From Sclerotinia nivalis (lineage: Eukaryota > Ascomycota > Leotiomycetes > Helotiales > Sclerotiniaceae), in the NCBI GenBank assembly GCA_029531795.1, contig JAPEIS010000016.1, positions 1,942,939 through 2,006,938 on the forward strand: DNA of 64,000 nt. Direction: 5' to 3'. This document shows positions 35,432 to 64,000 of the stretch, in pieces (positions within the stretch are counted from its first letter, which is position 1; each line of letters begins with the position of its first letter). The notes under the pieces were generated by a model. It ran no database searches. It worked only from the letters and a program-made list of their open reading frames with translations, and had not been told where the DNA came from. Both the position numbers and the translations under genes were made by a program.

Positions 35432-35599
35432 GTTTGTATTACTCTTTCAAAGGTTCCGTTACTTTACGAAATGATTTGGCTTTGCTAAATCATTTGCAGG
35501 CTTCTGTATCTGTTTTCGATTGCTTTCGTATTGTCGTAATTCGTCTGTTTTTGTGCGGTTGCATTTTTTATCTGCTTTTATATAGCTTTTGATCCTTGA

Positions 35600-36998: not shown

Positions 36999-37199
36999 TA
37001 TCTAAATCAGATATAATAGCAAGATTATATCGAGCTAGAGAAGGTTGTCTTTATATCCAATTCAATCAAGGAAAGTTTCGAACAAGGAAAAGATTAATCT
37101 TTACAAAAAATCACTCGTGAAGGAATACTAAAAACAAAAAGGTAAATCGAGGAATGGATAAAGATAAGCCATTATAATTCAATTCTATAAATAGCAAAT

Positions 37200-39760: not shown

Positions 39761-40099
39761 TCTGAATTTCTGTTTCAATATAATTTCTGTATAATCTATC
39801 GATCAGGAAACAAAGTTATTCGATTAAATATATTAAATAGAAAACACAAAGATCGACTATATCGCTTTGATCCAAACGATAAACGTCTAAAAAATCGAAA
39901 ACACGTTATCCTCCCTCAGGATCATTTTGATGACGACCTTTATAAGGATTTGATTGGGTATATCAATTTGGTACCAGTAAAGACAATAGTACTATTCCAC
40001 GATCAACCAATTGATGCTTTAATCGATGCAGCGTATACTAGATCCGACATCGCAGATCAATTTATCTTTGTTTTTAACGATCTATCAATGACTAAATAG

Positions 40100-41570
40100 C
40101 CAAAAGAGCATCGTAAAACCCTTTGAATCGTTATACAAGATTGTTCGGTCCAAAATAATAGAATTTACTATCGGGATAAGATTTGGGTTCCACCAAATGA
40201 TGAGCTCAAACTCCAAATTATCTATCGAACTCATTTTTCTAATCCTGCCGGTCATCCTGGTCGAACTAAAATGATCGATCTTGTCTCTCGTACATATTGA
40301 TGGTCTAATATGCATTTGGAGATCGCGTTTTATGTAAAGGCCTGCGAACTTTGTACTCGTGTCAAATCATCCAAATCGACGCCTCCCGGATTTTTGAAAC
40401 CGCTATCTATTCCTTTTCGTATGTAATCTGATATCTCAATCGATTATATTATACCATTCCCGGATTATATTCGTTATAATTCTACCTATAAATATATCTT
40501 GATAATAGTTTGCAGGCTAACCAAAATAAGACATTTTATCGGTATACGTATACTAACAATAAAGAAGTTAATCGATACTTTTATCAGCCGTGTCTATACA
40601 CTTCATAGACTTCCGGATAATATCATTTCCGATCGGGGAACGCAATTCGTATCAGGATTCTGATCACAACTCTCGAAGCGGTTGGGAATTACCTTAAAAC
40701 ATTCTTTAGCTTTTCATTCTCAAATAGATGATCAGATTGAATATATTAATTCGATTCTAGAACAATATTTACAAACTTTTGTTAACTATCATTAAAATGA
40801 TTGATTGGATTGGTTATCTTTAGTCGAATTTGTATCCAATAATTTGATCTTTGAAACAACTGATTGTTCGCCTTTCTTCGCCAATTACAGCTTTAATCCA
40901 TATCTAAACATTAAGCCTAATAAACCTTGCCTACCGAATATGACTCTAGTACAAAAACAGGAATTCTTTAAAAGTAATAGAACCGCAAATCGTATAAAAC
41001 GTATCTTGGAGTAATTTCGTGTTCTTATATAGTAAACAATTACTACTTATGAGAACTATACTAACCACCATTGTTTTGACTCACCTCGCTATACAACTAA
41101 CCAGAAAGTCTTTGTCAATACCAAAAATATAAAGACTTCGTACAAAGCAAAAAAGCTAAATGATAAATGGATCAGCCTTTACAAAATTATCAAAGTTTAT
41201 CCTCGTACTTGTTTTATTCAATTGCCTAAGAACGTTAAAATTTTCCCTGTTTTCCATCATTTTCTTTTACTTCCAACTCATACTAATCCTTACTTCCCAG
41301 CTCAAACAACAATTAACGAATCAGAATCCCTGATTACACGGGACAGAATTTTGAAATGGAACAACGATGAAGATGAGTCTGTTCAGAAATGAATATTTGA
41401 AAGAATTCTAGATAATCATGATAAAGATGGCCATCATTATTTGATCAAATAAAGACACTACGCACCAACTTGACAACCAGCTAATGACTTAAAGAGTAAC
41501 GAGAAGATTCTTATCGAATATCATCGCCTTCATCCAGAGAAACCAGGACCGTCAGCTTGGATCCTAAAGC
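40100..41570 (+). pseudogene. Integrase and chromodomain relic of the gypsy element
   Basis: The zinc-binding part (HFSNPAGHPGRTKMIDLVSRTY ... CELCTRVKSSK) at about 40230-40380 is followed by the DDE core: ISIDYIIPFPDYI, PDNIISDRGTQFVSGF and the later IEYINSILEQYLQ region. The C-terminal part reads PRTCFIQLPKNVKIFPVFH, and then a chromodomain-like end: ERILDNHDKDGHHYLIK ... EYHRLHPEKPGPSAW. The chromodomain normally steers integration to heterochromatin marked by H3K9 methylation, which fits the AT-rich location. Confidence 0.85.
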
Positions 41571-42376: not shown

Positions 42377-42608
42377 GAAGAGTAAATATAGAGTTAGGGT
42401 TAGGATAGGATTTGGTGAGTTTAAATATATATTCCCTTTTAAATAACATTAGAAATACAATACAATCATTTATATTACAGTATAAACGTTATAGTAGAAG
42501 ATATAATTGATCAAAAATAGATATTGTAATATTGCGCTTCCCGATTTGGCAAAAAGCCTAGTACTTGTTACGATAACGGATCTTACAATAACCGATTGTG
42601 TGAATACA
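42377..42608 (+). repeat. Repeat R, copy 1 (partial, diverged)
   Basis: Starts GAAGAGTAAATATAGAG like the other three copies (46540, 47730, 59415) and follows them through TTCCCTTTTAAATAAC, a TTATAGTAGAAG stretch, and GCTTCCCGATTTGGCAAAA. It loses similarity near 42608. More diverged than copies 3 and 4. Confidence 0.75.
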
Positions 42609-42958: not shown

Positions 42959-45900
42959 TTTTTTTTTTTTTTTTAAAGTTTATACAAACTCAATCTTTCC
43001 GAACCAAAACCCAACGCCTTATACAAAGAAAATCCAAAAATAACATAAAATAAAAATAAAAATAAAAATCAAAATAAAAATCAAAGCAATCCTTCAATCA
43101 ATAAATTGTATAGGGAATCGAGGACATATATCCTGATAGAATCTTGTAGATTTGAATCAAATTGCTAGTTTCGTTGTTTCTTCTATGCTTCTCAAAAGAT
43201 AGGGGATAGCTTCAGATGATGGTAACTTTGAAAGGGTTTTTTGAGCATTTCCAATTTTACAAAAGTAAAAATGAAGAGAGGATTTTCTTTTCCTATATGA
43301 GTATAATATATAAGCATCTTCGTAATTGAAGCGGTCGTGATACACTGCAAAATCGCCGTGTTGGGATCTAGTTGTTAGAATATATCCTAGTATTGTTTGA
43401 TCAAAAGAGAGTATGATCGATTTGTTGTTGTAAGTTATAAAAAGATTATTGTAGCTTTGTGGTGTTGTGGTTGTCCATAATTTAGTTTTTGTTGATTTGG
43501 CATTCGTTTTAGCGATTCTTTTTAAGGAGGCAAGAATACAAATAGAATCAGATAAGAATAAAAGAGTTGTTCTCTCTTTTGCTGCTTTATCCGTTGCTTC
43601 GTTTCCGGGGATATCCAAATGCCCAGGAATCTATCGAATTCGAATTGAGCCAAGGCAAGTATATAACAAACGGGGCCTGAGAAACCAAACTGTAACTAAT
43701 TTGCAGAATTCTTCGAATATAGATTAAAAGGATCTAGTAGAATGAAAGCCTAATCATATAACAACCTTTAGGTTATCCAAGAAAACCTAGAGGTCTGTAG
43801 CGAATCTAGCTGAGGGTAGCTGTATTGCTGCTTGAGCATTTTTCAAAGCTGTAGTTGCTTTGGTATCGAAGACTTCAACATTACAGCCTAATAAGAAAAT
43901 CTATCGATCCACTTATAGATTGTATTGATAAATCATTGATCCATCTTTTGTAGTACTATTCAGAACTTCACTTTTCGAACTATCGAAAAAGATTTACAAA
44001 TCATTTCTTGAAATCGTAAATATAAATCTTTCGAAATCCTTAATTGTTCGTTTTTTTGAACAACCGAAGGGGCCATCGATTCAGATTTCTGTAATAATAT
44101 ACGATTCTTTGTTTTTTTAAGGGGGAAGAGCAATTAGATTGATATATTCAGCTTTTGAAAAAGCTAGAATAATTCTTGAAAACCTTGATTCAGTAATTCT
44201 AGTCCCAGCTTTAGCTAGGATATTTTTGGTTCGAATTCGAAGGGGATGTTTAGGATCTAACCGAACCGTTCGGGCAGCGAAGTTCTGGGATATCAGATTT
44301 AGCTCAATCTCAGGGGGCATCAGATTTGATTCCTTGTATAGAGCAGCAGTATTAGTTGTACGGAATACAGGGATGATTGCTCGAGCGCTAGCTAGTACAA
44401 TCTTGTTTAAAAGCTTCAAATGCCCATCCACTTGATTCGAGGTCGTAAAGTGTAGGCCTCGTTTCCTAGTTCAGCCAGGCCACCAGTTTTCGGCTGCAAA
44501 GTAACATTTCTTCAGGACACAAGTTGTAACCGCTCTTTGAAGCAAAATTGATGGGATGCTTCGAGTTGTCCTTCTAAGCGAATGCAGTGTATTTACAATA
44601 ATAAAAGCCTTAGTTGAAAGGATCTGGATATAAAATTTGAAATTCAGTTTTTTGTCGAAGTAAACCTTCAACTATCTTAATGAGTTTGGTTTCTTTATTA
44701 TTGAAAGATTTTTTATATAGATAATAAGGCTTTCGATACCTTTTCTAAAACCTTTGAAGAAATGAATCAGTTTAGATTTTATAAGATCAAAAATGATCCT
44801 TTCAGATTTGTTTTAATCCAAAACCTCCAGTATTTCGGATTGTAATTGATCACAATTAGATTATAAGCTTGAAGAAAAAACTACTAATACAATATCGTCT
44901 GCATATCCAAATCTTCGAATAGGATTGTTTAATCAAAATAAAGGGGCTATATAAAATATAAAAAGAATAAACGAAATTGGGAAGCTTTATAGCAAACCAT
45001 ATCCAATATTAATATTGAACTCTATTTCGTTATCAAGTTAAATACAAATTATTCGATTTGTAAAGAACGATTATATCCATCGAACTAGATTATCAAGCCA
45101 TCCTTGTTCTCTAAATCGGCGGACCAAATATTCTGGAAGAATAATATCAAAAACACCTTTGATATCTATAGTTAATAAAATAACTTTAGAATCTAAATTC
45201 AAAGTTATTTTCAAATTATATATAAAACAAATTATGAAATCGATTGATGAATGCAAGGGAAGTGTTCTGAATTATTGTTTGGCTAGTACTTTGAGAGTTA
45301 TAACAATCCAGAATATCTTCTTTGCAATCAAACGTTCGAGATTTTTTCCTAATATTGAGAGTAAGGCTATTGGTCTATAGGATCTAGGGTTTGTATAATC
45401 TGATTTGTTCGGTTTCGGAATGATGGCTATAATCGCTGATCGGAAGTATTTAGGGTGGTGATTTATTTCGAGGCATTTTTGAAAGAGTTGTAAGATATAT
45501 AGTTCGATCAATAGTTATACTAATTGTAGGATCTTGATAGGGATCTTGTTTATTCCTGAAGCTGTATTATTTGTACAAAGGATAGCAGTTTGAATATCCT
45601 GAATTGTATCACAGAGGCAACAGACAGGACAACAGGAATCACTTTTATTAATAAGACGTAGCTCGAAGAGCTACGTTTCTATAGAAGGAACGGTTCCTTA
45701 AATACATTTATGTGTAGCGCTAGCCCCGACCGGGGCTAGCCTACACTTATCCGAGGTCCGACTCCTATGGGTCGGAACCCGAGCGGTCTCCGTATACCAT
45801 ATACGGGGACCCCGTGACAAATTGTGATAGCAGGAAAAGCAATTGAACGAATAGAAGTTAAAGACAAATCAAATAGGATATTGTTAACTTTAGTTGTATT

Positions 45901-46539: not shown

Positions 46540-47729
46540 GAAGAGTAAATATGAGGTTAAGGTCAGAATATGATTTTGGAAATTTTAGGATCCATTCGAT
46601 TCGTTTTGATTCGACAAATATAATGTAATCATTTATATTATCATTAAGATGTTGTGGAGGGAGTTATGGTTGATCAAAGGCAGGTGTTGTGGTGTTGCAT
46701 TTCCTGATTTGGTAAGAGGTCTGATACTGCCAGTGGATCATTGCCTTCCCAATCGAGGTTTTTCAATCAACGAATATATGAATACTTTTGACTTCGAATA
46801 AAACATATGTAAAGTATATTTTATATATCTTTTAGGGTCATTTTGAGGCAGGGTTTCGAATCTGAAATCATAATTAAATTATTTATTGAATTGAGGGATC
46901 TTTATAGATTTTGATTATTAGGTGTTGTAATATTGTATTTCCCGATTTAACAAAAGGTCTGATACTACCAATAGATCATCGCCTTTCTAATCAAGGTTTT
47001 TCAACCATCTTTTTAATTTTATATTACAAAATCTGCTTTTATTATTAACTTTTTTGTAAAATCGAAATGTTACCTCAAAAGAAATGTGGTGGGCGATTAA
47101 AGAAGTATCTGAATACTAATGAAGCCAAAAAGGCGAATATCGATGGCAATCACCGGCGTTGAGAAAGAAAAGCACTCCAACCTTTGGATCCAATCGATTT
47201 CATTGTATACAAGCCTTTACTTCATTTAGATAACTTTACAAATACTCCTTTTACAATTGAATTTCAAACGGATATTCAAATTCTTCAAGATCATGATGCC
47301 CAAGATGTTCAAGAAAGCGATGTTCCAGAAAACCTGTAATCAATTTCCTTACTATTGATTCAATTATCCTTGATCGATAAAGATGCCGATATCGATGTTG
47401 TTATACAGATCAAGTAGATTCGAATCAATGAACAACAAACTAATCTTGAGAGAAACGAATACAATATAAAGATTACAGAAATTTTGATAGGATTACAGTC
47501 AGTCAATGCGATTAGTGTAGCTGAGGAGACAAGAATTAATAGGATTAATGGGATATCAGAATTACAAATTGAAGAAGAAATTAAAGTAGCGATACCAACA
47601 TCAAGAATACAGACCGAGAAGCTTCAGTATTTTTGTTCTTCGCAGATTGGTTCTATAGATGAGTCAATAATGATATGGGATAATGATAATATTACTGTAT
47701 CAAATGTATGCAACGAATCAGCGAGTATA
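46540..47729 (+). mobile_element. Element E, truncated copy (repeat R copy 2 plus start of body)
   Basis: Repeat R copy 2 (46540-47066) contains two related sub-blocks ending CCAATCGAGGTTTTTCAA-like (about 46770 and 47000). The body opens with an ATG at 47067, MLPQKKCGGRLKKYLN, a basic GRPKKY-type segment, then LDPIDFIVYKPLLHLDN and a stop-interrupted acidic continuation (open at 47484-47738: IQSVNAISVAEETRINR). It matches copy 3 closely until 47729, where copy 3 starts; the rest is missing. No transposase family recognised. Confidence 0.7.
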
Positions 47730-48229
47730 GAAGAGTAAATATGGGGTCCGGGTCAGGATATGATTTTGGAAATTTAGGTATGCATTCCCTTCTAAATAAT
47801 ATAACAAATACAGTACAATTATTTATTTTATTATTGAGAAGTTGTAGGAGGAGTTATGGTTGATGAAAGGTAGGTGTTGTGGTGCTGTATTTCTCGATTT
47901 GGCGAAAAGCGTGGTACTGCCGATGGGTCCATTGCTTTCCGAATCGAGGTTTTTCAAACAACGAACATTCTAACTCTAAGGAAGATTTCTAGCTTTTGAA
48001 TAAAATAATGAAAATCTGATAATCCAAGTTTATATACTACGAAGTAATACTATATTTAATTATATTATCATAAAAAAATCGTGGATGAAGATATGATTGA
48101 TCAAAGTTAATCCTAAGAAGTTCGATACTGTTGGCAAGTCATCGCTTTTCCAATCGAGGTTTTTCAAACACTTATTTCCCCTTACCCTGCGAAATCTACT
48201 CTCATCATCAACTTCTTTATAAGATTAAA
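47730..48229 (+). repeat. Repeat R, copy 3, leader of element E
   Basis: About 490 bp, starts GAAGAGTAAATATGGGGTCC. Highly similar to copy 4 at 59415-59890 along its whole length. Two internal sub-blocks (about 47870-47965 and 48105-48175) share GATACTG...TCCAATCGAGGTTTTTCAAACA, showing an internal duplication within R. Confidence 0.85.
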
Positions 48230-51200
48230 ATGTTATCTCAAAAGAAATATGATGGACGACCGAAGAAGTATTCGAATGTCGAAGAAGCTAGAAAAGCGAA
48301 TATCGAAAGCACCCTCCGCCATCGAGAAAAGAAAACGCTCCAATCTTCGGATTTAATCGACTTCATTGTATACAAGCCTTCGCTTCATTCAGATATCCCT
48401 ACAAATACTCCTCCTACAATTGGTTTTCGAACGGATATTCAAATCCCTCAAGATCATGATGCTTAAGAAAGCGATGTTCCAGAAACCCTATGATCGATTT
48501 CTTTATTATTGATTCAATTACCTTCGATCAATAAAAATGCCGATGTTGCTGTACAGATTAAGCAAATCCAAAAAAACGAATAAGAGGTTAATCTTGAGAG
48601 AAACGAATATGATACAGAGATTGCAGAAATTCTGATAGGATTGCGATCGGCCTATACGACTAGTATAGTTGAGGAGGCGAGAATTGGTAGAATATCAGAA
48701 ACACATATTGAAGGAGCAATTGAAATAGGGATATCAGGAATACAAACGATGAAAGACTCATATATTGTTAATCAAAAAAAAGAAGTTCACAATGAAGAAC
48801 TTTGGTATTCTTGCTCTTTGTATATTGATTCTATAGATAAATCAATAATGATATAGGATAATGATAATATTGTTATATCAAATCTATTTAATGAATCAGT
48901 AAGTATTCAAAGATCTCCAATGAATACAATATTACCAAAAACACCAACTCAATCCAAATCATTCCCTTTATTATCATCATCAAATAAAACTAATAGCAAA
49001 GGAAACACTAATAAACAAAATACATCATTTTCAACTCAAAAGAACAATCTTTTGTCATAAATGAAACCCTTAGCAACAAGATCATCTGAAAACAATATAT
49101 CTTCCCCCTCAACTATAAAGAAACTTCCCAACAATACTTCTCCTTCACCTTTTCATCGAATTGAAAGTTTTGTACTGTTTTTGCCTATTCAACCAATAAT
49201 TCGAACAACACCAAATCCTACCATCTCTATACCCAATCCAATTTCTACTCCAATAGTAACAGATTCTTCAATACTAAGAACCTCTTTAAACACAACAGTA
49301 TCTCCTACTTCCATTAAGCGAACTACCTTCAAACTTGCCAAACAGCTTCGGAATTTTCAAGGCTATACTTATGAACAATATTCTCAAGCTAATCAATCTC
49401 ATCACAAATATCATCAACGATCAGATATATATTCTGAATGTTCATCTTTATTACAAATTACTAATTTTCTTAAAGGAAATTATATTGAAGGTATACCCTT
49501 ACCTGATATTTTGAATAATCCTAAATTGATGAAAGTAGAAAATCATAATAGCCTCGATTATCAAACAGTATTTGAAGATACAAGTATATTAGCTATACCT
49601 GAAGATACTGGAATACGGAATGAGAATCTATTTAAGAACTTATGTTTATTATAGCATTATATAGCTAATAAAAAGAATCACTATCCCAAGATAACGTTTG
49701 ATATTGATAACACTTGTTGCTTCTCTATCAGCTTAATATTCGCAAAACGAAATATCAATTGATTGTCTAAAGTATATCCTATTTTCAATCTTACAAATGA
49801 TATCCATTTTAGATTGCAAATGCCGGTATATAATAATCGTAGTGTATTGATATACAAATATATTCTACTTTACAAGATTCCTCATTATTGCTTTGATACT
49901 ACGATTGGAATAGATTCATTATTGATTTTCATCTTCTTTTCAGTTCTTCATTTAGAAAATGATTATAAGCATACTATTTATTTAAACAAATAAGATAATG
50001 AACTCTTTTATAATACTATTATTAATCCAGCAATAAATAAGATAATTAAGTCCTTCAATATTATACAATATTATTCTGCATCTACTAAAATTTCAAATTT
50101 GGATTCAATTATGATATCAGCAAAAAATCTTGATCGAAAAGAGTCAGTAAGAAATCAGCTTATCAAATACACTATACAACCTCAATACCTTGATACACTT
50201 TGGAGCCTTATTCTTCAAATTATCAATGAGAATCCAAATTTTGATCGATTTCGAGAAGCAATCTTATTTACCGATTCAAAAAATACTAAGCTGGAATTTA
50301 TGAATACTAATCTGATTCAAATATATAATAGTTGGAAAACAAAGTAATCTAAAATGACTGATATACAATTTTATAACCAAGATCATATGTTTATTGGTCT
50401 TGCAAAGCAAATAACATTCGAAAATAATGCTCTATCATATAATCATATTCCGGAAGACTACAAAGCAGAAGTATTCTTGTAGAAAAAGTATTGTTTCGAA
50501 GTATATACTAAAAGCCAGGTAGTTCTTGATACAGATAACAATTCAGCTAAAGGGAACCCTAAATGTACTATATATCCTTGAACGATGATACGGGATATTA
50601 TAGGCCAGACTCTATTTGCTATCCCAAATGAACAAAAGAGTAAAGATGGATTGATCTATTCTCAACATTACGTATTGATCAAGACACCCTTTGATTTATC
50701 AAAGGTGTACGTCTTTGATAATGATTTAATTGAGAACCTGGCTTTCGATTTTGGATACATTTGATCACTATAATAAGAAGAAGATAGGATTATTTTCTCC
50801 AAAACTGTTTGTGAGTTTGGCTACTTTTATAGTAAAAAGCAAACCTATACAAATCTCGTCGATAATCGCGGGAAGTCGTACGGGATTCGAGAAGAGCATT
50901 GTATCTTTTTGACTATGATGGAAGAGGTTTATCAGCAATGGCAACAATGGGATCTGTACGATAACGAGGTTGATATTGTTCAGCCTATTCTCCTTTATTA
51001 TATTGTCCCTACTCGAAAACTGCTTGATTTTCTCTCGGCTCAAATTAATAAATATTATCTTCTCTTTGAATATATTCTTGTATATATAGATATGATATAC
51101 TCGTTATTAGAAATTATTATTATAATAATAGCATTCAGAACTCTTCGATTTTGTTATAATAGCAACTTGATTCAACAGGAATCCCTATTGTACAAAGATC

Positions 51201-52700
51201 ATTAAAAACAGATATGGAATCACAAACAAATTATAAAAGAGGGCTTAGGGATACAGAATACAATAGAATAGTATAGTTTGGATTGATTCTTATCGAAATT
51301 TAATTGGACAATGTAACGGCTCGCAATACTACATAGAAAGAATATTCTAATTGATAATATACTAATATATAAAGAGTATAAGAGAAAATGGTATACAATC
51401 AAAGATCTTCGAGATATCTATATACGCTTTAATCAAACTGTGTTTTGGTATAATCGATACAATATACAATATAGCCTTTCTTTATTGAATAATTGATTAG
51501 AATATTTTTACATCTTGAATCTCGAGCAATTCGATACCGATATCTAAAAGGCTATACTCAAATCCTATAAAAGCTCTCCAGAATTATTACCTGATGCTAT
51601 AAAACAAAAGGAAGATATTCGATTCTACTATAAATATATAAAACAAATGTTTCTAATCAATAAAGTTATGGAGCTCTTCATTTTGTAACAAAAAATAAAA
51701 TACAATTTGATAGAAAAGCTGATCTACTCGATTTCTTGTTTCTGTAAAAGAATAACAAGGAACATCGTAGTTGGAATTACAAATCATATCGAATTATCTT
51801 ACAAAAGTCTTTTGAATTAATTAAACGATGTTTGGGATATCGAAGAACGGATAAATAATTGGATGAATTCTTACATCTTATTCGGTTGACTCATTGGGTC
51901 CTCTTTTATCCATTGGATTCTACCTTTATTATATCAACGAAGACTAATTGTAATCAAGATCTCTAGGAACGAATAATATAGCTCTCGATTATATATACTA
52001 ACCCTGAGAAAGTCGAGCTTCCTTTTCGTTTTCATCCGATTACGCTCTATAATATTCTGTAGTACACACAACAATAAACATTTGATAATAGTAGTAATCA
52101 TATATAGAACACCTTTGATATTATTACGGCATACAGAACTCAAAGGATCAAGATTTATAGATTAGAAAAGATTGAAAAATTCTGGATCACAGGGAAACAG
52201 AATAAAAGATTGAAAGGGTTTCGGCCAATATAGGAATGGACGGAGACACCAAAATTGAAGATACTAAAACAAATCAAAAACCAGAGCTTAAATGAATTAA
52301 AGGACTTAATAAGTAGATTTAATCGAAAGTGTACTGTTGATATTGATAATGATATTGATGATATTCAAGATAATAAATCGAATATAGTTGATACTACTGA
52401 CACTTATCAGTAATCTGCTAATGCTAATGCTAGTATTAGCAGAGGAAATATTATAACTGCTTTTGCTCGAAAACCGAATGATGAAAAAAAGCAAAAGATT
52501 GAATTGAATGAAAATGATTGTAATAATGATAATATTTTTATACCATCGAATAGCAAGAGATAGACAGTCGGATGCATCTTTGAGATTAGCTTAGAGTAAA
52601 CACTTTAGCTAAAAGAATTACAGCTTTAGAGGGAAATAAATGATCTGATCGAAGAGTCTTTGATATTGATTAACAGAAGAACCTTTTTACTTAATCATAA
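48230..52700 (+). mobile_element. Element E body: large degraded coding region of unknown family
   Basis: Starts ATG at 48230 (MLSQKKYDGRPKKYSNVEEA...; open to 48466) after repeat R copy 3. A long series of same-strand open stretches follows, separated by single TAG/TAA codons where Trp or Gln is expected. They include 49061-49654 (Thr/Pro/Ser-rich, then KLAKQLRNFQGYTYEQYSQ and GIPLPDILNNPKLMKVENH), 50099-50347 (NPNFDRFREAILFTDSKNT), 50540-50760 (IRDIIGQTLFAIPNEQKSK and LIKTPFDLSKVYVFDND) and 50909-51205 (MEEVYQQWQQWDLYDNEVDI). Later come FNQTVFWYNRYN, NPEKVELPFRFHPIT and EKFWITGKQNKRLKGFRPI. It was evidently one large protein of over 1200 residues, killed by RIP-type stops. I do not recognise the family. 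A basic GRPKKY N terminus and association with R mark it as repeated DNA. Confidence 0.55.
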
Positions 52701-52959
52701 TCGATATAATCTAATCTAATTCGTTAATAACATTACTAAAAAAATTATCTAACTTGTAATAATATTATATATAATAATATTATATATCCTATAATCAATA
52801 TAGTAATTACTAATTCTCATCTTTTAAATCATTAATTATTATATATTATAAGTTTTATTTTATTTTATATTAACCACTAAATATTAAATTAGAGAATTTT
52901 AGAAAAGATTAATTACTAAACTTATTATCTAAAGATAAATTATTTTGAAATAAAATTTC
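52701..52959. other. AT-rich spacer
   Basis: Almost pure A and T with short inverted runs around TATATAATAATATTATATA (52770-52790). No gene. Confidence 0.5.
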
Positions 52960-53327
52960 CTATAGTCAATTGTATTATAATCAATTTTACTATAGTCAAT
53001 TTTACTATAGTTAATTTTATCATAGTCAATTTTATAATAGATTATTTTATTATAATCAACTTTATTATAATTAACTTTACCATAATTAACTTTACTATAA
53101 TTAACTTTATTATAATCAACTTTACAATAGATTACTTTATTATAATCAACTTTATTATAATTAACTTTATTATAATCAACTTTACAATAAACTACTTTAT
53201 TATAATCAACTTTATTATAATCAATTTTACTATAATCAACTTTATTATAATCAACTTTACTATAATCAACTTTACAATAGATTACTTTACGATAGATTAC
53301 TTTATTATAGATAATTTTACAATTAGT
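52960..53327 (+). repeat. 15-bp AT minisatellite
   Basis: About 24 tandem units of AACTTTATTATAATC and close variants (TTACCATAATT, TTACAATAGATT). Variation is mostly C/T in the last base. Directly downstream of element E. Confidence 0.85.
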
Positions 53328-53589
53328 AATATTCGATAAATAACTTAAAGAATATTTTAAATTTAAATTTCGAAATTGTATTCATATAAGTATTAATAAT
53401 TAAAAGAGAGAACTGCTAAATGATTAGGAAAAAAATACATACAAGTAATCAAAAAAAAGGAACCGTTAAGGGTTTGAAAATAAAGAAAATGAATTTAATA
53501 TAAAGAGATTTATTAATAAATTGAAAAATTAGAATTATATAAATGAAATTAAGAGTAATGTATTTATTTTGAAAATGATTTTAGAGATT

Positions 53590-56500
53590 TTATAAATAAA
53601 AAATAATAATAAATTATAATCATTTGAGATATTTAAAAAATAAGATATAAAGAAATAATTATAAATAAAATTAGATTAAAAAAAATAATATAATTTAAAA
53701 TATTATTAATAGGAAGTAAAATGAAAAAGGATTTGAAGTAATTTTTATAATTAAAAATAAAAATAAATTAAAAAAGAATAATAAAAAGAAATAATAAAAA
53801 GAAATAATAATTGAAAATATAAAAAAATGAATATAATTATATAAGATGAAGAAAAAATAATTAAAAGAGTTAATTTATATATATAAAAAAATAAGTAAAT
53901 AAAATAATTAAAAGTATATAAATATAGATTTATAATAAAAGAAATATAAGAATTAGGGTTATTGATAAAAAAGAGGATTAGGATTAATTATTGATAAAAA
54001 GGGAATTAGAATTATTAATAAAAAAAGGAATTAGAATTATTAAAAAAAGAATAGGATTATAATAAAAAGTAAGATATAAAATAAAGAATAAGATGATAAG
54101 AAAAAAAGATAAAGGAGTTAGAATAATTAATATAGAAAAGAAAAGAAAATTAAAATAGGAATAATAAAGTTTAAAAAAAAAAGAATAAAAATAAAAAAAA
54201 AGATAAAATTGATAGGAAATAAAAAGATTAAATAGAAAGAATAAAAATAAAAAGGGAGTAAAGTTGAAAAGGGAGAATTGGAAAGGGAGAATTGAAGAAA
54301 GAGTAGAGTTAGAAATAAATTATATAAAATTGGTTGAATTAAATTAATAATAGTAAAAGAGAGTTATAGAAAAGGAAGATAAATAAAAAAGATAAAAATA
54401 AATATTTAGAGGATATGAGGAATAAATAAATTTTTTAAAATAAAAAGAATATATAGAATTTAAAATAATTTTTTGGAAAGATTATATTATATAAATATAA
54501 ATATAAATTAAAAAAAAAAAAGAAAAAAGGGTTATTAAAAATGATTATATAAAAGGAAAAAAGAATTGATTTAAATAAAAGAGTTTTAGGATTATAAAGA
54601 AAGAAAAATGAATTAATAATTAATAATAATAATAATAGTAAAGTATTTATTATATTAAAAAAAAGAGATTAGGATTATTAATAAAAGAGAGGGTTAAAGG
54701 TATTTGTATTATAGAGATTATAAGATTAGGATTAAAAAAGATTTTATTATAAGAGAATAATATAAATAAAGATTATATTAATAAAAGATAATAGTTTAAT
54801 AAATATTTTTTAAAATAAGGAATTATATTTTGTTATTTATTAAAAGTAAAATATAAAGAGAAAATAGTTAGAATATAAAAATGAAAAGAAAGAAATGAAA
54901 TGAATTATTAATAATAAATAATAAAGTAAAAAAGAATAAAGTAAAAAATAATAAAATATAGAATTTAAAAAAGAAATGAATTTTTAAAAAAAGTAGAAAT
55001 ATATATTATAAAGTATTTAAAAAAAAGTTATGAATAAAAGAAATAAAATAAGGATATAAAAAAAGAAATAAAAAGAAAAAAGAAAAAATTAAGAAATGAA
55101 ATAATAAGATAAGATAAGATATTAAGATTAAAGTTATTTGAGAAAGAGAAATTAATAGGAATATATAATAAGATTAAAATGAATGATTTTAAATATTATA
55201 AGGTTTGAATAAAAATAAAGAAAAGATTAGAATAAAATTAAAGATATATAATAAAAGATTAGAAATAGGATTAGGATTATTTATAATGTGGATTTTAGAT
55301 AAATAAAATGAAATAAATAAAATAGAATAATTTATATTGATAATATATAATAAGAAAAGGTTTTTAAAAAAATAAGAATGAATATTAAAGAAAGATATAT
55401 ATAAATTAAAATATAATAAGTTTTAGGATTATAATAATAAATATAAGAAAAGAAAATTTAGAAATTGGATTTAGGATTATATATAAATAAAAGAAATTAA
55501 TATAAATTGAGGTAAAAAAAAAGAAAAAAAAAAAAATAGATATAGAATTTTAAATAAAAGAATAAATATTAATATATTGTAAAGTAAATAAGAAAATAAA
55601 ATAAGAAAGTTTTTAGGATTTGAAATAAATGAAGTAAATAAGATTATAAAAAAAGAAATGAAGAAAAGAAATGAAAAAGATTTTTAGGAATAAAAATATA
55701 TATTAAAGATATTATTAAGAAAGAAAAACAGGCGAATAATAATCAAAAATATAATAAAATAGATATAGAATTAAGGTATATAATAAATTTTGAAGAAAAA
55801 TAGGATTAGAGTTATTTATAATAAGGGAATAAGGAATTTTTATATAAATAAATGAATATAGATTGATTAATATTAAGAATTGATAAGAAAAAAAATTGAA
55901 AAAGAAATTTTTTGAAAAGAATTTAAAGAGAGAATTTGAAAAGAATAAATTGAATAATAAATAAATAAAAGAAAGATTATATATTAAAAATAAGAGATTA
56001 ATAATATTTTTTAGGATTTTAAAATTATAAAAAGGAAAGAAAGATTTTTTAAAATAATAAAAATAAAGAAGTAATATAATAAGAATTATAAAGATTTAGA
56101 AGAATAATAAAAAAAGAAAGAAATAAATGAAGAAATAAGAATAATAAAAAAAAGAAAAAGAAAAGTGGATTAGAAATAATATTAATTAGAAATAAAAGGA
56201 ATTTTAGAATTAAAAGAAAAAGAGATTAGGATTATTAATAAAAGAAAGATTAGAATGATAAATTAAAAAGAGGATTAGAATAAAGAATAAGAATTATAAA
56301 TGAAAGAAGGGATTTTAATCAGAAATAAAGAAAAAAGAAAGAAATAAAATAAAAAGAAAGAATAAAAATAATATTTAGAGTTAGATAGGAAAAGAAAATA
56401 AAAAATATAAAAGAAAAAGAGAATATTAAGATTAAGGATATTAATAAAAAGGAGAATTATAGTAATAAAATAAGAATAAAATAAAATAAAAATTGAGATT

Positions 56501-56866
56501 TTGAGAATTTTGAAATAAAAAAAGAAAAAGAAAAAGAAAAGAAATAAAGGATTAAAATATGATTAAGAATGAAAAATAGAAATGGAATTATTAATAAAGA
56601 AGAAAGAGATTATAATTGATAATAATAAAAAGAAGGAGAATAAAAGAAGGAGAATAAAAGAAGGAAAAGGAGAATAAAAAGAGAATAAAAAAAGAAGAAT
56701 AAAAAAAGAATAAAAAGGAGAATAAAGAGAATAAAAAAGAAGAAGAATAAAAAGAGAATAAAAGAAGAATAAAAAGAAATATAAAAATTAAAAAGAAATA
56801 ATATTAAAAGAAATAATATTAAAAGAAATAAGATTATAATAAAAGATGAATGAATAACATAATTTT
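53590..56866 (+). repeat. C-depleted low-complexity tract, left part
   Basis: About 3.3 kb in which the + strand consists of A, G and T with only a handful of C (I see them near 53623, 55729-55744 and 56320). Loose recurring words include GATTAGGATTATTAATAAAAAG, AAAAAGAAATAATAAAAAGAAA and, near 56640-56760, GGAGAATAAAAGAAGGAG. There is no coding potential. It is the degenerate continuation of the G-rich minisatellite seen at 59100-59414; a DNA transposon at 56867-58672 separates the two parts. Confidence 0.85.
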
Positions 56867-58672
56867 ATCAGAAGATCGGCTATATCAGTGAATCGGTCAT
56901 TTTAATCGAATTATTGATTTAAAAGTATATTATTCAACAAAAACTAAATCAATTGATTGAAATATTAAGAATCTAATAATCTAGGATCAGTATACTATTT
57001 TTTATGAGGATCTTGAATTGTGACTAGTCTTTTAATTTAATACAGCATCGATTAGAATACTTCCCCATTAAATTCCCTCTATTTTGAAGCTCGTCGTGTT
57101 GAATCTGAATATCAACCTTTTAATGAGATAATATATCTTCAGCTTTTTGAAAAGTAAGTACTCCTTCATTATATAATTGAATCTTTTTAGCATATCGATG
57201 TTTGCTTAATAATAAATTTGAATTAAAGCATAGATTCTCTACACTTAAGTATTCTCATAGGCTAATCTTTCTATGCCTTTAAATAGAGCTAATAGAGTTT
57301 CGAATATTAGATATAGGGGAATTGATTGATAATGAGTAATTGGAGATTTTAGTAAAATCGATTGGAAAAAGAAATGGTGGATTATAAAGGTGTTTGAGAG
57401 ATCCAAGAGTCTAGATCGATGAATGGAGGGTAGGTGTACGAATCCGGGTATTTAATTTTGAGAGTATAGCTTGAGGATCAAATGATATTAGACCTACTCC
57501 TCGAAACCAACTTTATATTCTGAGTTATGATTGATTGTTGATATACAGCTTTAAAAGTTATAAAAGATTCAACCTTAGTGATATAATTGATAGAATTTAA
57601 TAAATCCATTAATTTGACAACCATATACCTGTTTCAATACACTAAAACAGCCAACATCAAATGGTTGAGTTAAATGATTTGAATACAATAATAATCTTAT
57701 ACATATAATATTATTTGCCTTGCAATATAATTGAAAAGGTATCGATTCGTGACTTTCGTATCTATTTATTAGCATTCGATATTTGTCTTTCGTTCGATGA
57801 ATTGTATATTTATCGAAAGCTTTATTCATTCCAATCCTGTCTCATTATTCGTCTATAATTGGAAGTAGATTTAATAGCCCAATCTGCAGGAAAACCGCTT
57901 TCCGTATATCAATTAGAAAAATGATATTGCTTTTGAACTATCGAAATGAAGGTATAGTTTCCCCTTCACTATTATTATATATAATCGCTATAGCTTACTC
58001 TCTATTATCGATTTAATATTGCTTTACTTCTATCATTCCGTTCAGCACTAGTTACAATTATTCCGGGATATATTATACCCATTATAAAGCTAGTTTCATC
58101 GAAGTTATAGAAATCGCAATCCAAGATACCATATTTAAACCTGTATATTCAATACCAATTGAAATCACTCTTCAATAAGCTTGGGATCCTTATAGAGAGC
58201 TTTTTGGAAGTCATAAACACAACTAAAACGCATCTTTAATTCTATACATCGTTGTATAAAACGATGAGCTCAAAGCTTTCCAACCTTCTTCGCACTTTGC
58301 GTTTCGAGTATATAATTCGCTATATCTTCAACACTACTTAATTTAGATGAAAATCCTCTATAATCCATATCAAATATATATTGAATAAGTACCTCCTCTT
58401 TTAATTCAATCAAATTATAACTTTTGGTCAATTTCAGCTATACTAGGTTTACCTCGAATTCTATCATCCAATGTAGATCGAGATATACAATAGGATTGAG
58501 CTGCCTTTCGAATTGTTAATTTTTTATTTGATTCAATAATCTGAATAGCTAAGATTATATATGCTTCTTTAGAATGAATTTCCGTAGTTGATAATGAAGA
58601 AAACGTGTATTAAGTGTAGACTAATAATTCGAGGTAAAAGTGGCCGACCTATTGATATGATTGATCTATTGA
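56867..58672 (-). mobile_element. pogo/Fot1-like DNA transposon, RIP-degraded
   Basis: Read on the minus strand. The N-terminal helix-turn-helix is TIRKAAQSYCISRSTLDDRI with RGKPS (about 58550-58470). Then a CENP-B-type DNA-binding part (KVGKLWAHRFIQRCIELK near 58270), and the DDE domain with FDETSF (about 58110), LINRYESHES (57766-57738) and QPFDVGCFSVLKQVYG (57660-57610). A C-terminal ENLCFNSNLLLSKHRYAKK coil follows. At the second catalytic position relatives have Asp-Gly-His; here Asn-Arg-Tyr, each explained by one transition. Imperfect terminal inverted repeats of about 45 bp lie at 56873-56920 and 58621-58667 (both read outward-in as GATC..C.ATATCA..........GAATTATT). Exact ends are uncertain by a few bases. 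It lies inside the C-depleted tract. Confidence 0.85.
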
Positions 58673-59099
58673 TAAATTACATTATAGGAATAGAAATAAA
58701 AAGAAGATAAAATGAATAAAGAAAGAATAAAAAGAAATGATAGAATTTTAATAATAAAGAAAAAAGAGATATTGGGATTAGTGATATTAATGAAAAAGAG
58801 GATTAGGATTATAAATGAAAAGGGTTTTAATGAAAAAGGGATGAAGGATATAAATGAAAAGGGTTTTAATGAAAAGAGATAAAATTAAAAAGGGAGAGTT
58901 GAAAAGAAATAGAATTGAAAAAATAAAGTTGGAAAAATAGAGTTGAAGAGATAATAGAATTAAAGAAAGGTAATAAAATTGAAGAAAAGTAATAGAATTG
59001 AAGAGAGGTAAAATTGGAAAAAGGTAATAGAATTGGAAAGGGGTAGTAAAATTAGAAAGAGATAGAGTTGGAAAGGAATAATAGAATTGGAGGGGTAAT
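58673..59099 (+). repeat. C-depleted tract, right part
   Basis: Resumes after the pogo-like element with no C on the + strand. Composition shifts gradually from A-rich (left) to G-rich (right): GAAAAGGGTTTTAATG, then TAGAATTGAAGAAAGGTAAT, then GAATTGGAAAGGGGTAGT-type words about 18-20 bp apart, merging into the 61-bp minisatellite. Confidence 0.8.
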
Positions 59100-59414
59100 A
59101 GAGTTGGAAAGGGTTAGTAGAGTTGGAAAGGGAGTAGTGTAAATGTGTATGTAGGGATGGGGTAGGTGGAAAGGGTTAGTAGAGTTGGAGAGGGGTAGTG
59201 TAAATGTGTGTGTGGGGATGGGGAAGGGGGAAAGGGTTAGTAGAGTTGGAGAGGGGTAGTGTAAATGTGTGTGGGGGGTTGGGGTAGGGGGAAAGGGTTA
59301 GTAGAGTTGGGGAGAGATAGGAAAATTGGAGAGGGGTAATAGAGTTGAAGAGAGATAGTAAAATTGGAGAGAAATAGTAGAGTTGGAGATGGGTAGCGTA
59401 AATGTGTGTGTGTA
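59100..59414 (+). repeat. 61-bp G-rich minisatellite with G-quadruplex motifs
   Basis: AAAGGGTTAGTAGAGTTGG recurs at 59108, 59170, 59231 and 59292, a period of 61-62 bp, with a GTAGTGTAAATGTGTGTG segment in each unit. Two stretches have four closely spaced G-runs (59214-59236 and 59273-59297), fitting the canonical intramolecular G-quadruplex pattern. Ends at repeat R copy 4. Confidence 0.88.
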
Positions 59415-59890
59415 GAAGAGTAAATATGGGGTCCGGTCAGGATATGATTTTGGAAATTTAGATATACATTCCCTTCTAAATAATATGACAAATACAGTAC
59501 AATCATTTATTTTATTATTGAAAAGTTGTAGGAGGAGTTATGGTTGATGAAAGGTAGGTGTTGTGGTGTTGCATTTCTCGATTTGGCGAAAAGTGTGGTA
59601 CTGTTGATGGATCCATCGCCTTCCGAATCGAGGTTTTTCAAGCAACGAATATTCTAACCCTAAGAAAGACTTCTAGCTTTTGAATAAAATAATGAAAATC
59701 TGATAACCCAAGTCTATGTACTACGAGTAATACTATACTTAATTATATTATCATAAAAAAATCGTGGATGAAGATATGATTGATCAAAGTTAACCCTAAG
59801 AAGTTCGATACTGCCGGCAAATCACCGCTTTCCCAATCGAGGTTTTTCAAACACTTACTTCCCCTTACCCTGCGAAATCTAACTATTATT
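59415..59890 (+). repeat. Repeat R, copy 4
   Basis: Nearly the same as copy 3 (47730-48215) from GAAGAGTAAATATGGGGTCC to CCCTTACCCTGCGAAATCTA. Similarity fades between 59880 and 59897, just before the palindrome cluster, so the helicase-bearing segment to the right appears to be inserted at or near this point. No element E body follows this copy. Confidence 0.85.
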
Positions 59891-60479: not shown

Positions 60480-60715
60480 TCAGAATTCAGTTCTAAATCA
60501 AAACCTTCAAACCCTTCAAGACCTTTAAAACCTTCATACTCTTCGAAATCTTCAGATTCTTCCAATTCCTCGAAATCTATTCTTCGAAACCTTCAAACCC
60601 TTCAAACCCTTCACACCCTTCGAAACCTTTCAAGACCTTCACACTCTTCGAAATCTATTCTTCGAAATCTTCAAACTCTTCGAAACCTTCACATTCTTCG
60701 AAATCTATAAAAAAC
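60480..60715 (+). repeat. Coding minisatellite (CTTCGAAA/CCTTCAAA words)
   Basis: Short imperfect repeats of CTTCGAAACCTTCAAACC type. Read as protein they give Ser-Ser-Lys and Pro-Ser-Asn strings in one frame (about 60489-60570) and the same kind of strings in another frame from about 60640 on, so an indel inside the array shifts the frame. It forms the low-complexity N-terminal leader of the helicase gene. Confidence 0.7.
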
Positions 60716-63700
60716 AATCTAAAATTAATTCAATTATTTCAATCTGAATTTTCTATTCTTTGTTTTCCTGAATTACCTCTTAAATCTCTATTTCAATGTT
60801 CTATTTGTAATCTCATTAAATTTAATCTAAAAAATCTAAAAAAACATCTCAATTCTAATCATAAAGATATTGCTTTCGATCTGCGTTTTGATTTAATCAA
60901 GAATATTTCAAGGCAAGAGTTATTATCTAATCGTTTATTTTTCGAAGTTCAAATTAAAGAAAAGAATCATTCTAATGAAAATTCTAATTCAATTCGAAAT
61001 GATATTATTGAAGTAAATGATGAATTAGATAATGATTTATCATCTTCTTCTCTCAATTTGAATTTAATTAAAAAGAATTGGAAGAATACTTTTGATTCTA
61101 AATTAAAGGGTATCGAACAAAAGATTAATTCTACTAAAGTTGGTTTAGAAAATCTTACTCCATTTCAAGAACGTACTAGATATATTGAATATATTCAAAA
61201 GTTTGATATTAATGATTTAAAATCTTGTTCTAATTTTCATATTGTATCTGAGAGTCGTATAGCTCAATCCTTTCTAATTTAGAAATCTTATTATATCTAA
61301 GTTTAGAGAAAGTAGTATTTCTGAATAAATCTCATCTAAATATTTTGAATAGCTTTGAAAAAGATAAGATTAGAAATAAGGGGTTTAAACCTCTTCATAA
61401 TCCTAATAGTCGTACTAAATATTTCACTTTTTTTCAAACCTTTTTTAGTTTCATTATGTATACCTCTTTCAAACACCCTAATGTTTTTTATTCTGATTTT
61501 AATGATTTAAGAGCTAAAGTGATTGAATTACTTAAAAAAGCTGTGGATTTCAATGAGATTCTAGATTCTGAAAGGTTTTTAGAATCTAATATAAAAAGCA
61601 GTAAAAAGTCTTTCATTAAAAGAGCTAATAAGGTCAAATTTAATAGTTTGAATTTGAATCAAGAAGAGAATAATAATTCGATTGTTTTAAGCGATTCTGA
61701 AGAATCTAATTCGGATGATTTAAATGAGTCAGATGATTCAGATGATTCAAATGATTCATCTGATTCATCTAATTCATTTAAATCATCTGAATTAAATTCT
61801 TTAGAAAATGATTCTAATAATATTATTGAAAATTTTATTAAAATTAATGATTCAGATAATGAATTATTGATTGAGATGAGAGATTTAATTTTAGATATTA
61901 TAATTATATGCTTTAAACAAAAGACTGATTTAAATATCTTCGATAGTCCTATTAATTGCTTCTTCGCTTGCCAATCTATTAGAAATAATAATTCCATTCG
62001 AGATACCCTTCAATTATCCCAATTTTATTCTCATTTTATTTATTGTAGTCAATTATTCGTAGTTGAATATTCTATTCGTCAATTAATCATTCATCCCACT
62101 TATATTTTGAATTCGATTTTATCTAGATTTATGATTAATTACTTTCAGAATCATAGTCAAAATGCATTAGCTGAAATTCTATTGCATCGAAGTTATGCTT
62201 TTAAAGTGAATAAAGAATTATCTAGTGAGAGTTTAATTATTATTAGCTCTACTCAAGTGAATACGCTTTCTTATAGAGATATTACTATTCGTGTGGATAA
62301 TCTAAAGGAGCTATTTAAATCGATTTTAAATTCTACTTATTCTTTTTTTAATGAATCAATTTTAATGAATATTGATTTGGGTGAATTCTCACACATTAGA
62401 TTGGAAGATTTTAGTAAATATGAAGATCGTGAAAATAAAACTCCCTTTAAATCATTCAAAGATTTTCATCCCAATGTTAAGTTTAATGACGAATTTCTAA
62501 TCAATAAAGTGATTGATATTGAAAGATTAAGAGATCATTTCTTTGTAATTTCGAACAATAATTTAAAGTTGAATAAATCGAATTATAAGAATTACCTTAA
62601 AGAGATTTTGAAATTCAAGAAGATGCTTTTATTACTAATTCATTTAACTAGTGGTTTACCTTCAAAAGGTACTGAATTGTGTATATTAAGGTATCAGAAT
62701 TCTAATAAAGATCAGAGAGAACTGTTTTTAGATATTGGAAGTTCTTTATTTATTACAAATATCTCTGCTGATAAATCAAGATCTCGTACAGAACTTCGTG
62801 CTTCAAAGCTTAAATATTTACCTATATCTGTTTCTAATATCTTATTAAAATATATTGTTTGTGTTGATCCTTTTATAAAAGCATTGAATATTACTAGTAC
62901 TAAATTCGATTTCAATTTAATGAATCCCTATTTAGGGTATTTCAATCAACGTTCTCTCGTTTCTTCCGATCTTTCTTATATTCTTAAAAAATATTCTGAA
63001 TCAATATTAGATCTTAATTTGAATCTTCAAAAATATAGACAAATAATTGTAGGAATTATGAGAGAATTTATGAAAGAAAAGATTAATTTAAGTGATTTAA
63101 CTCTTGAAGATGATTTGAATGAAGCTAGCGCACATCAAATTCAAAGTAGTTTAATGGGACATACTTCAGATATTGATTATATGCATTATGGGCGTTCTAG
63201 GACTACATTTAAAAATATTCCTTTAAATAAGCAAAATAAATATTTAGAATTAAATTTGCGATTTCATGAATTTCTCGGGTTGAAAGATTATAGGGTTGAA
63301 GTAAGTCCTTTTGTTAGTAGTTTGACTATTAGGAATCAAACTATATTAAAAGAAAAAGATTCAATATTAAATAGTCTATTAGTTAGATATAGTAAAGAAT
63401 CCGATTCAATCAATCCTCGCAAGTATCATCGACAGAGTAGTTCTATTGATGATAATTCTAATAGAATGATTAAAAAATTGAAAGTTTCAGAATTTCAATC
63501 ATTTTCTAATACTGTTTCTTCTAATATTATATTGAATCAATTATTGAGAGAGTTCTTAAATGATTCAACTGCCTCTTTTAGAATCTCAGAACAGGAGACT
63601 TTGATAAAAAGTATATTATTAAAAGTTCCATATATTTTAGGTGTTTTGCCTACTAATAGTGGTAAATCTTTAAGCTATTTATTGACTAGTTCATTAATAA

Positions 63701-64000
63701 CTTCCAAAATTACTATTGTGATTATCCTTTGATTGCTTTAAAAGCTGATATTTTAAATAGAGCTAAAAGTTTCAATATTCCTTGTTCCGTTTGGGAAGAA
63801 AATCGAGAGTTTAAAAATCTTACTTTAATTAGTATTGAATCAATTATGAAAGAAAGCTTTATAGTGAAGTTGACTGAATTGATTAATGAAAAGAAGATAG
63901 ATCGATTTATAATTGATGAGTGTCATTTATTAGTTACTAGCTCTCATTATCGTAATATTATGTTTCGTTTTAGATCTCTATTATTGACTAAATGTCAATT
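60497..64000 (+). CDS. C2H2/OrsD-like, tyrosine-recombinase-like, RecQ-type helicase protein (partial, two frameshifts)
   Basis: Runs off the window. In order: a Ser/Lys/Pro-rich leader; FPELPLKSLFQ then CSICNLIKFNLKNLKKHLNSNH-type finger (C-x2-C-x12-H-x4-H, about 60770-60860) as in OrsD/DUF3505 regions; a helical section; an acidic Asp/Ser-rich insert (61680-61800). Next is an integrase-like core: LIHLTSGLPSKGTELCILRY (about 62635-62693), LRASKLKYLPISVSNILLKYI, and HQIQSSLMGHTSDIDYMHYGRS (63133-63200). Then the helicase: ISEQETLIKSILLKVPYILG, motif I PTNSGKSLSYLL (about 63650), PLIALKADILNRAKSF (motif Ia) and Walker B DECH (63917-63928). Frame breaks: near 61265-61281 and near 63724, each a single-base change. 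No in-frame ATG is found upstream, so the start is unknown. The domain order matches fungal telomere-linked RecQ-like helicases (inference). Unlike all other repeats nearby it lacks RIP-type stops although it is very AT-rich. Confidence 0.72.

Follow-up and report, generated by a model that had tools for sequence, protein, structure and literature searches.

The stretch analysed here, hereafter the window, comprises 64,000 nucleotides from the ascomycete Sclerotinia nivalis. It forms the right end of contig C16 (2006938 bases), window base 64000 being the last base of that contig; the assembly searched amounts to 50.3 Mb in 31 contigs. The contig end falls inside a helicase gene, which is the subject of this study. 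Segment 60497-64000 holds a damaged, truncated copy of a gene present many times at chromosome ends. This particular copy is probably dead, and many of its sister copies show damage as well. Its coding sequence is spread over three frames (60497-61282, 61252-63732, and 63690 to the end). The middle one is an open frame of 826 amino acids (P0001) that holds the segment SGLPSKGTEL...GHTSDIDYMHY. At 60699/60702, about 370 bp are missing that are present in an uninterrupted copy, locus L005 on contig C18. An earlier interpretation of this DNA (the sequence-only reading) had seen one reading path joining a C2H2-type finger, a tyrosine-recombinase-like segment and a RecQ-type helicase. The path in the window crosses all three frames, and a single open frame of 1439 amino acids (protein P0004), with the helicase in the same frame as the middle domain, occurs in L005.

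The finger and the helicase were correctly recognized. Pfam assigns an OrsD region to residues 126-234 of P0004 (expectation value E = 3.2e-6), as well as DEAD (3.8e-9) and Helicase_C (2e-9), and matches nothing between OrsD and the helicase. For the window piece, the C2H2 finger scores are all sub-threshold, and ResIII is matched at 2.8e-5. With its GKS and DECH motifs and the DEAD and Helicase_C domains, both of which also occur in homologs, the distal part is a RecQ-like superfamily 2 helicase core. Three homolog searches returned 16, 4 (the query among the 4) and 113 proteins; named homologs include members from Pseudogymnoascus, Aspergillus, Venturia and Aureobasidium, and the pair of OrsD and helicase recurs in many of them.

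The structure models assign the tyrosine recombinase/topoisomerase IB fold to the middle domain: in the fold comparison of the domain model, this fold occupies the first 47 of 50 structural rows. Structure prediction, which the sequence-only reading had proposed as a check, thereby returned the recombinase fold. Sequence searches returned nothing of the kind. No recombinase family is matched by Pfam in six proteins at E<=10, nor in 19 proteins at E<=1 among 25 of the 30 families listed. A Phage_integrase search of the S. nivalis genome gave 0 matches, with all 14 control genomes positive. A search of PDB sequences with P0001 gave five matches (best E 0.42), none of them a recombinase. The proposed profile comparison thus succeeded for OrsD and the helicase, but the tyrosine recombinase is invisible to both Pfam and hhalign; with all recombinase profile searches empty, a profile search alone would have led to rejection of the sequence-only reading.

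The residue pattern was followed in three alignments. Among 17 sequences, R840 (in RGTE), R964 (in YRQ or YRH), H1005 and Y1014 are invariant, and K876 is kept in at least 90%. An alignment of a second, distant family comprises 115 sequences, i.e. P0024, P0025 and 113 homologs (totals vary, gaps being excluded); it has the first Arg in 113/113, the Glu in 113/113, the Lys in 114/114, the second Arg in 114/114, His as the next residue in 108/114, and the Tyr in 115/115. The spacing R-x-x-E and a Tyr nine residues after the His are those of known tyrosine recombinases. In a joint alignment of 56 rows (the window piece, P0004 and 54 of the 132 homologs), the second Arg and the Tyr are present in all 56, the Lys in 55 and the first Arg in 54; the two exceptions are the window, with Lys, and one other row, with Tyr. 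The third basic position, 8 or 9 residues before the Tyr, is H in 30 rows, R in 24 and G in 2. The first residue of box II is Q in 24, L in 17 and H in 10 of the 56 rows; other homologs read HGWRH or QxWRH, and HGWRH, a box II of textbook form, is present in one member. The sequence-only reading had sought the HxxR box in HQIQ. The invariant Arg is instead that of QKYRQ (P0001 R596), 41 residues before the His. In the aligned proteins, an R-K-R-(H)-Y set is conserved across the family, with R, K, R and Y kept almost without exception; taken alone, the window copy fails this set, with Lys at the first Arg. By modelled fold and by residues we assign the domain to the tyrosine recombinase superfamily, and its activity would be DNA cleavage and strand exchange.

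The Lys in the first box had been taken, together with the supposed HxxR box, as a sign of an inactive or specialized recombinase. It is indeed found in the window, but among 30 fetched loci of the same genome, which partly overlap, the Arg is kept in 28, Lys being limited to the window and C6. With the majority letter among ten copies as reference, the share of C>T/G>A changes among the substitutions is 8/9 in the window, 50/50 in L008, 62/62 in L009, 17/19 in L010, 8/10 in L005, 6/9 in L006, 3/3 in L002, 33/81 in L007, 1/3 in L003 and 0/3 in L004. The Lys-for-Arg change of the window is one among its 8 changes of this type. No single dinucleotide context is prominent in the excess, which in several copies, though not in every one, resembles repeat-induced point mutation. 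Because the excess is seen in the window and in two other copies, the damage looks copy-specific. That the family as a whole carries an inactive or specialized recombinase relic, serving as a DNA-binding module of a telomere helicase, is in our opinion very improbable. The window copy, with its Lys, its frame breaks and its missing first finger, would suit such a relic, and Crypton-derived proteins without catalysis are known (accessible part of PMC3212892). Against it stand the C>T/G>A character of the damage, clear in the window, L008 and L009 and less so in L007 and L004, and the retention of R, K, R and Y almost throughout the wider family.

A genome search for the gene yields at least 41 matches. 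Of these, 33 belong to the close family, at 64-100% identity, and represent fragments of a smaller number of genes; four are matches of 46 amino acids to a serine/aspartate-rich stretch, and four are distant (23-32%). None of the 33 close-family matches is more than 37 kb away from a contig end, and 30 of them are directed to that end. The four distant matches are directed away from it (the four short rows are excluded from the orientation count). The mapping of copies therefore contradicts a single internal copy, and the precedent of telomere-linked helicases, named by the sequence-only reading, was borne out in both the RecQ-like core and the many near-telomere copies. The distant matches include two long open frames on C13, of 1706 and 1337 amino acids. 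This genome also contains another family with this architecture, lower in AT content, at L062 1627-6747 and L061 2869-6882 (C13) and at L063 2532-7207 (C2). Its C13 frames are directed away from the telomere; the C2 locus, with a frame in at least 4 pieces, lies at 1.80 Mb, far from the contig ends.

The gene is part of a larger unit, here called type A, whose upstream end is sharp. The C18 copy resembles the window from 59413 onwards, a point two bases ahead of the motif GAAGAGTAAATATGGGGT. Genome-wide, this motif occurs 29 times with <=1 mismatch (reversed control: 0 and 1). All 29 copies are located <=44 kb from a contig end, and 26 are directed to the nearer end. The exceptions are two copies on C30, directed to its telomere-bearing right end, and a third on C9; counting the right end of C30, 28/29 face a chromosome end. 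A search with two mismatches adds ten further copies, three of them deep inside contigs. We read 26 left flanks (25 of the 29, and one two-mismatch copy) and regarded flanks as alike when 28 of 40 bases agreed. Two flank pairs are alike, so at least 24 distinct settings are joined to the unit at one point. The two bases ahead of the motif are TA in 18 flanks and AT in 8. A second flank for the comparison of direct repeats is absent, the far side being telomere. For nine independent flanks, an uninterrupted paralog was available among 15 sequences searched: the target stops 0-5 bases ahead of the motif, and the gap is filled by A, TA, TTA, TTTTA, AT and similar. Over these nine comparisons, the position of the upstream end varies by no more than a few bases, and a small filler is present at the junction. 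The upstream end also contains a GGGTCCGGGTCAGG or GGGTTAGGGTTAGG stretch, similar to variant telomere repeats.

The far end of the unit is telomeric. C5 and C10 share the terminal sequence GAGGGTAACCCGTGCGTGTAT[AG]TGCATCA, directly followed by telomere-type repeats. With <=3 mismatches it is found 12 times in the genome (control: 0). Nine of these far ends (<=1 mismatch) lie <=211 bp from a contig end and are followed by GGGTTA/GGGTCA/GGGCCA repeats. The other three (3 mismatches) are interstitial, and a degenerate telomeric tract of 29 bp separates each of them from the upstream end of a following unit; their surroundings are all but identical, and we count them as one event. Variant GGGTCA and GGGCCA repeats stand between the far end and the TTAGGG array in L068, L093 and L094 (C5, C1 right and C6 left). 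Both ends are present in seven type A units, at a distance of 9.0-12.3 kb; in one of the seven the far end is interstitial. C14 is cut inside the distal repeats and capped by telomere repeats. From the upstream end, 11 of 29 copies lead to the helicase gene, and 5 of 29 run into another upstream end first. The start of the P0001 part is 2.2 kb away in seven of the 11; the distance is 1.8 kb for the window and for C30, and 3.3-3.4 kb for two others. A second unit, type B, has about 470 bp of the upstream end in common with type A (93-95% identity) and lacks the gene. Its frame, 1.66-1.70 kb from the upstream end, has 25 matches in the genome, and no credible Pfam family is found in the type B frames of the window (48101-51205). 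The right end of C18 resembles window 49200-59412 piecewise (83-91%), and the array there continues into the telomere; by this resemblance, it seems to show the stage that preceded the addition of a type A unit.

One way to account for these distributions is a spreading like that of yeast Y' elements, in which a subtelomeric block is copied between ends by homologous or break-induced recombination, the helicase helping at telomeres and the recombinase domain being at most a DNA-binding remnant. C14, C5 and C10 have similar distal blocks (about 94%) that extend to the telomere, one interstitial junction is found at three chromosome ends, and the two alike flank pairs indicate that copying between ends does occur. 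Homologous copying brings its flanks along, however, yet the many different flanks join the unit at the same place, and the catalytic-type residues are conserved across distant families. We therefore consider such spreading an unlikely explanation of the whole pattern, although one to be taken seriously.

Rather improbable, in our judgement, is a second possibility, in which host end-joining attaches free copies of the unit, as cDNA or excised DNA, to broken ends, or the copies arise by reverse transcription in trans; the recombinase would have no part in the joining. The extra T-rich bases at the junctions and the type B units without gene would agree with end-joining, and the T-rich filler can also be read as a short A tail on the other strand, as the retroelement version would have it. 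End-joining alone leaves unexplained both the constancy of one unit end to within a few bases and the conserved recombinase active site; for the retroelement version, no reverse transcriptase frame was seen in the listed type A loci (by reading only, no profile search).

We favor, with a probability of roughly one half, the interpretation that the telomere-linked RecQ-like helicase with its unannotated tyrosine-recombinase middle is the gene of a 9-12 kb chromosome-end element that caps ends. In sequences and models, this interpretation draws on the predicted fold, the conserved R-K-R-(H)-Y set, the sharp end with unrelated flanks, the orientation, the telomeric far end and the strings of units. 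The recombinase would cut and join DNA at the upstream end of the element, and the helicase would open or prepare the DNA substrate. AT-rich subtelomeric or eroded ends would receive the element, which would carry a telomere seed with it and form the new end. Through repeated addition, head-to-tail strings would arise, in which an older unit may be shortened by the next, and the type B unit, with the same upstream end and no gene, would be moved in trans. The sequence-only reading had suggested a self-mobilizing or telomere-maintenance element. The multicopy chromosome-end unit with its transposon-like sharp end agrees with that suggestion, whereas self-mobilization, i.e. movement of the unit by its own recombinase, is what we infer. 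More generally, fungal telomere-linked helicases of this kind might be transposases of telomere-capping DNA elements, whose tyrosine recombinase-RecQ fusion attaches the upstream end to chromosome ends that are eroded or broken and provides a new telomere; we put this forward tentatively, with the odds somewhat against it. If true, HeT-A/TART would have a non-retroelement counterpart driven by a recombinase, and a helicase-less second unit would be moved in trans.

Several observations weigh against a capping element moved by its own recombinase. The activity of the enzyme is presumed from fold and residues. When the domain alignment was compared by hhalign with nine known recombinases, nothing scored above six unrelated controls, and the best single value belongs to the control CorA, above the recombinases. 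In Foldseek, the 826-amino-acid model matches XerA at E 0.49; for the domain model the best E is 0.017, no match reaches 0.001, and pannexins and other unrelated chains appear from rank 5. The His-Tyr segment is modelled with low confidence. Within the genome, the His is changed to Tyr in 8 of the 30 loci and the second Arg to Lys in one, and the Glu of DECH is changed to Lys in 9 of the 24 loci that have a letter there. The 0-5 filler bases are not predicted by a simple recombinase exchange. A far end beside non-telomeric DNA occurs in 0 of the 12 cases, so insertion of a whole unit is undocumented, and 13 of the 29 upstream ends lead to a gene-less type B unit. Given the filler bases and the gene-less units, free units might instead be attached by end-joining, or ends might recombine with one another.

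Table 1. Features of the window: units at the contig end and landmarks of the helicase gene.
Feature	Position	Strand	Basis
Older unit, upstream end (two mismatches)	42377..42394	+	motif search, flank reading
Older unit, upstream end; shortened by the next upstream end at 47730	46540..46557	+	
Type B unit: upstream end as in type A, frames 48101-51205, terminates in array	47730..59412	+	
G-rich subtelomeric array, 61-bp units, directly before type A unit	58683..59412	+	
Type A unit (putative telomere-linked helicase element), truncated at contig end	59413..64000	+	similarity to C18 copy from 59413
Sharp upstream end motif GAAGAGTAAATATGGGGT of type A unit	59415..59432	+	
C2H2 finger, second half of OrsD-type region; first finger missing here	60791..60862	+	P0002 residues 99-122
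Predicted tyrosine-recombinase-fold domain, up to conserved Tyr	62233..63189	+	models, fold comparison; end = Tyr codon
Box I: Lys codon, Arg in family (P0001 residue 472)	62665..62667	+	
Conserved Lys (P0001 residue 508)	62773..62775	+	
Second catalytic-type Arg, QKYRQ (P0001 residue 596)	63037..63039	+	
Conserved His, MGHTS (P0001 residue 637)	63160..63162	+	
Conserved Tyr, presumed nucleophile (P0001 residue 646)	63187..63189	+	
Helicase motif I (GKS)	63661..63669	+	
Helicase motif II (DECH)	63915..63926	+	

The guanine-cytosine (GC) content falls along the window, from 40-45% in the first 34 kb through about 30% up to 52 kb to 26% within the gene. The older upstream ends, the type B unit, the array and the type A unit follow each other in this order (Table 1). 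Reading of the terminal letters shows that TTAGGG-type arrays terminate 18 other contig ends; the window end and the left end of C18 are without such an array. The small contig C30 (25,066 bp), which bears a telomere, contains upstream ends and helicase pieces in a spacing close to that of the window end; it could be either a recent duplicate or the end that C16 lacks. Window 54001-56000 shows an extreme strand bias, with a GC content of 0.138 and a GC skew of 0.978: on the + strand, nearly all of it is G, with no C. A DDE-type transposon relic is nested in the subtelomere at window 56798-58657, and another at L067 2012-3900; both contain a psq helix-turn-helix, and the one in L067 a Tc5-type DNA-binding domain. 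By eye, polymerase-like remnants of a long terminal repeat retrotransposon seem to be present at 35586-41392 (YLDDVLIYS near 39 kb), and a probable RNase H-like piece at 43157-43630.

Telomere-adjacent helicase genes in fungi have reportedly been known since at least Sanchez-Alonso and Guzman in 1998. The telomere-linked helicases reported for Ustilago, Magnaporthe, Fusarium, Agaricus and Zymoseptoria are likewise multicopy RecQ-like genes within tens of kb of the ends, and low GC is common to both (accessible part of PMC4522978). That part treats telomere-linked genes as helicase genes; by the descriptions of the named proteins, the recombinase-fold domain and the sharp-ended unit are what is added here. 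With XerH, XerA, Cre, FLP and topoisomerase IB the middle domain shares the fold and the order of catalytic residues. It differs from known tyrosine recombinases in being invisible to sequence profiles and fused to OrsD-type fingers and a helicase, in a box II that often reads Q-x-Y-R, and in a third basic position that is H or R. Cryptons are also eukaryotic DNA elements with a tyrosine recombinase and no reported terminal inverted repeats. They are recombinase-only, whereas here a helicase lies in the same frame (L005), the far end is telomeric and the orientation is fixed; the word helicase is absent from the accessible part of the Crypton paper (PMC3212892), and no fusion of RecQ and Crypton is described in that of PMC4522978. 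Helitrons, considered on account of the helicase and the AT/TA bases, were set aside: the Pfam lists, one of which shows 25 of 30 families, contain no replication-initiator family.

In Starships, as in the unit described here, the recombinase gene lies near one element end and reads inwards. Here, by comparison, the Pfam lists of six proteins (E<=10) contain no DUF3435, large cargo is absent and the location is at chromosome ends; no paper that connects a Starship tyrosine recombinase with a subtelomeric helicase was found in the literature searched. The Y' elements of budding yeast resemble our units as helicase-coding chromosome-end units with telomeric tracts between tandem copies. As far as their descriptions go, they differ from the present case, with its sharp upstream end, many unrelated flanks and recombinase domain. 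HeT-A/TART, MoTeR and FoTeR form uniformly oriented strings at chromosome ends with telomeric tracts, as our units do. These telomeric retrotransposons differ in that we see a recombinase and a helicase, and no reverse transcriptase in the listed type A loci. The accessible part of PMC4522978 cites Y' elements, and that of PMC12857005 treats FoTeR; the word 'recombinase' occurs 0 times in the accessible parts of PMC12857005, PMC7593156, PMC8381367 and PMC7473861. A link between a telomere-linked/RecQ or OrsD helicase and a tyrosine recombinase was not found in the literature searched, mostly without subscription papers.

What emerges from sequences and models is a predicted cryptic tyrosine-recombinase domain inside a telomere-linked helicase, within a sharp-ended chromosome-end unit. 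This suggests that a telomere helicase can be part of a mobile element spreading among chromosome ends, and it bears on the function of telomere-adjacent helicase genes and on their presence on so many chromosome ends. The conserved recombinase-type active site and the defined element end make a role in telomere maintenance testable, with the Tyr domain and the GAAGAG end as starting points. If our interpretation is true, a recombinase-based route would be added to those by which elements are already known to colonize chromosome ends.
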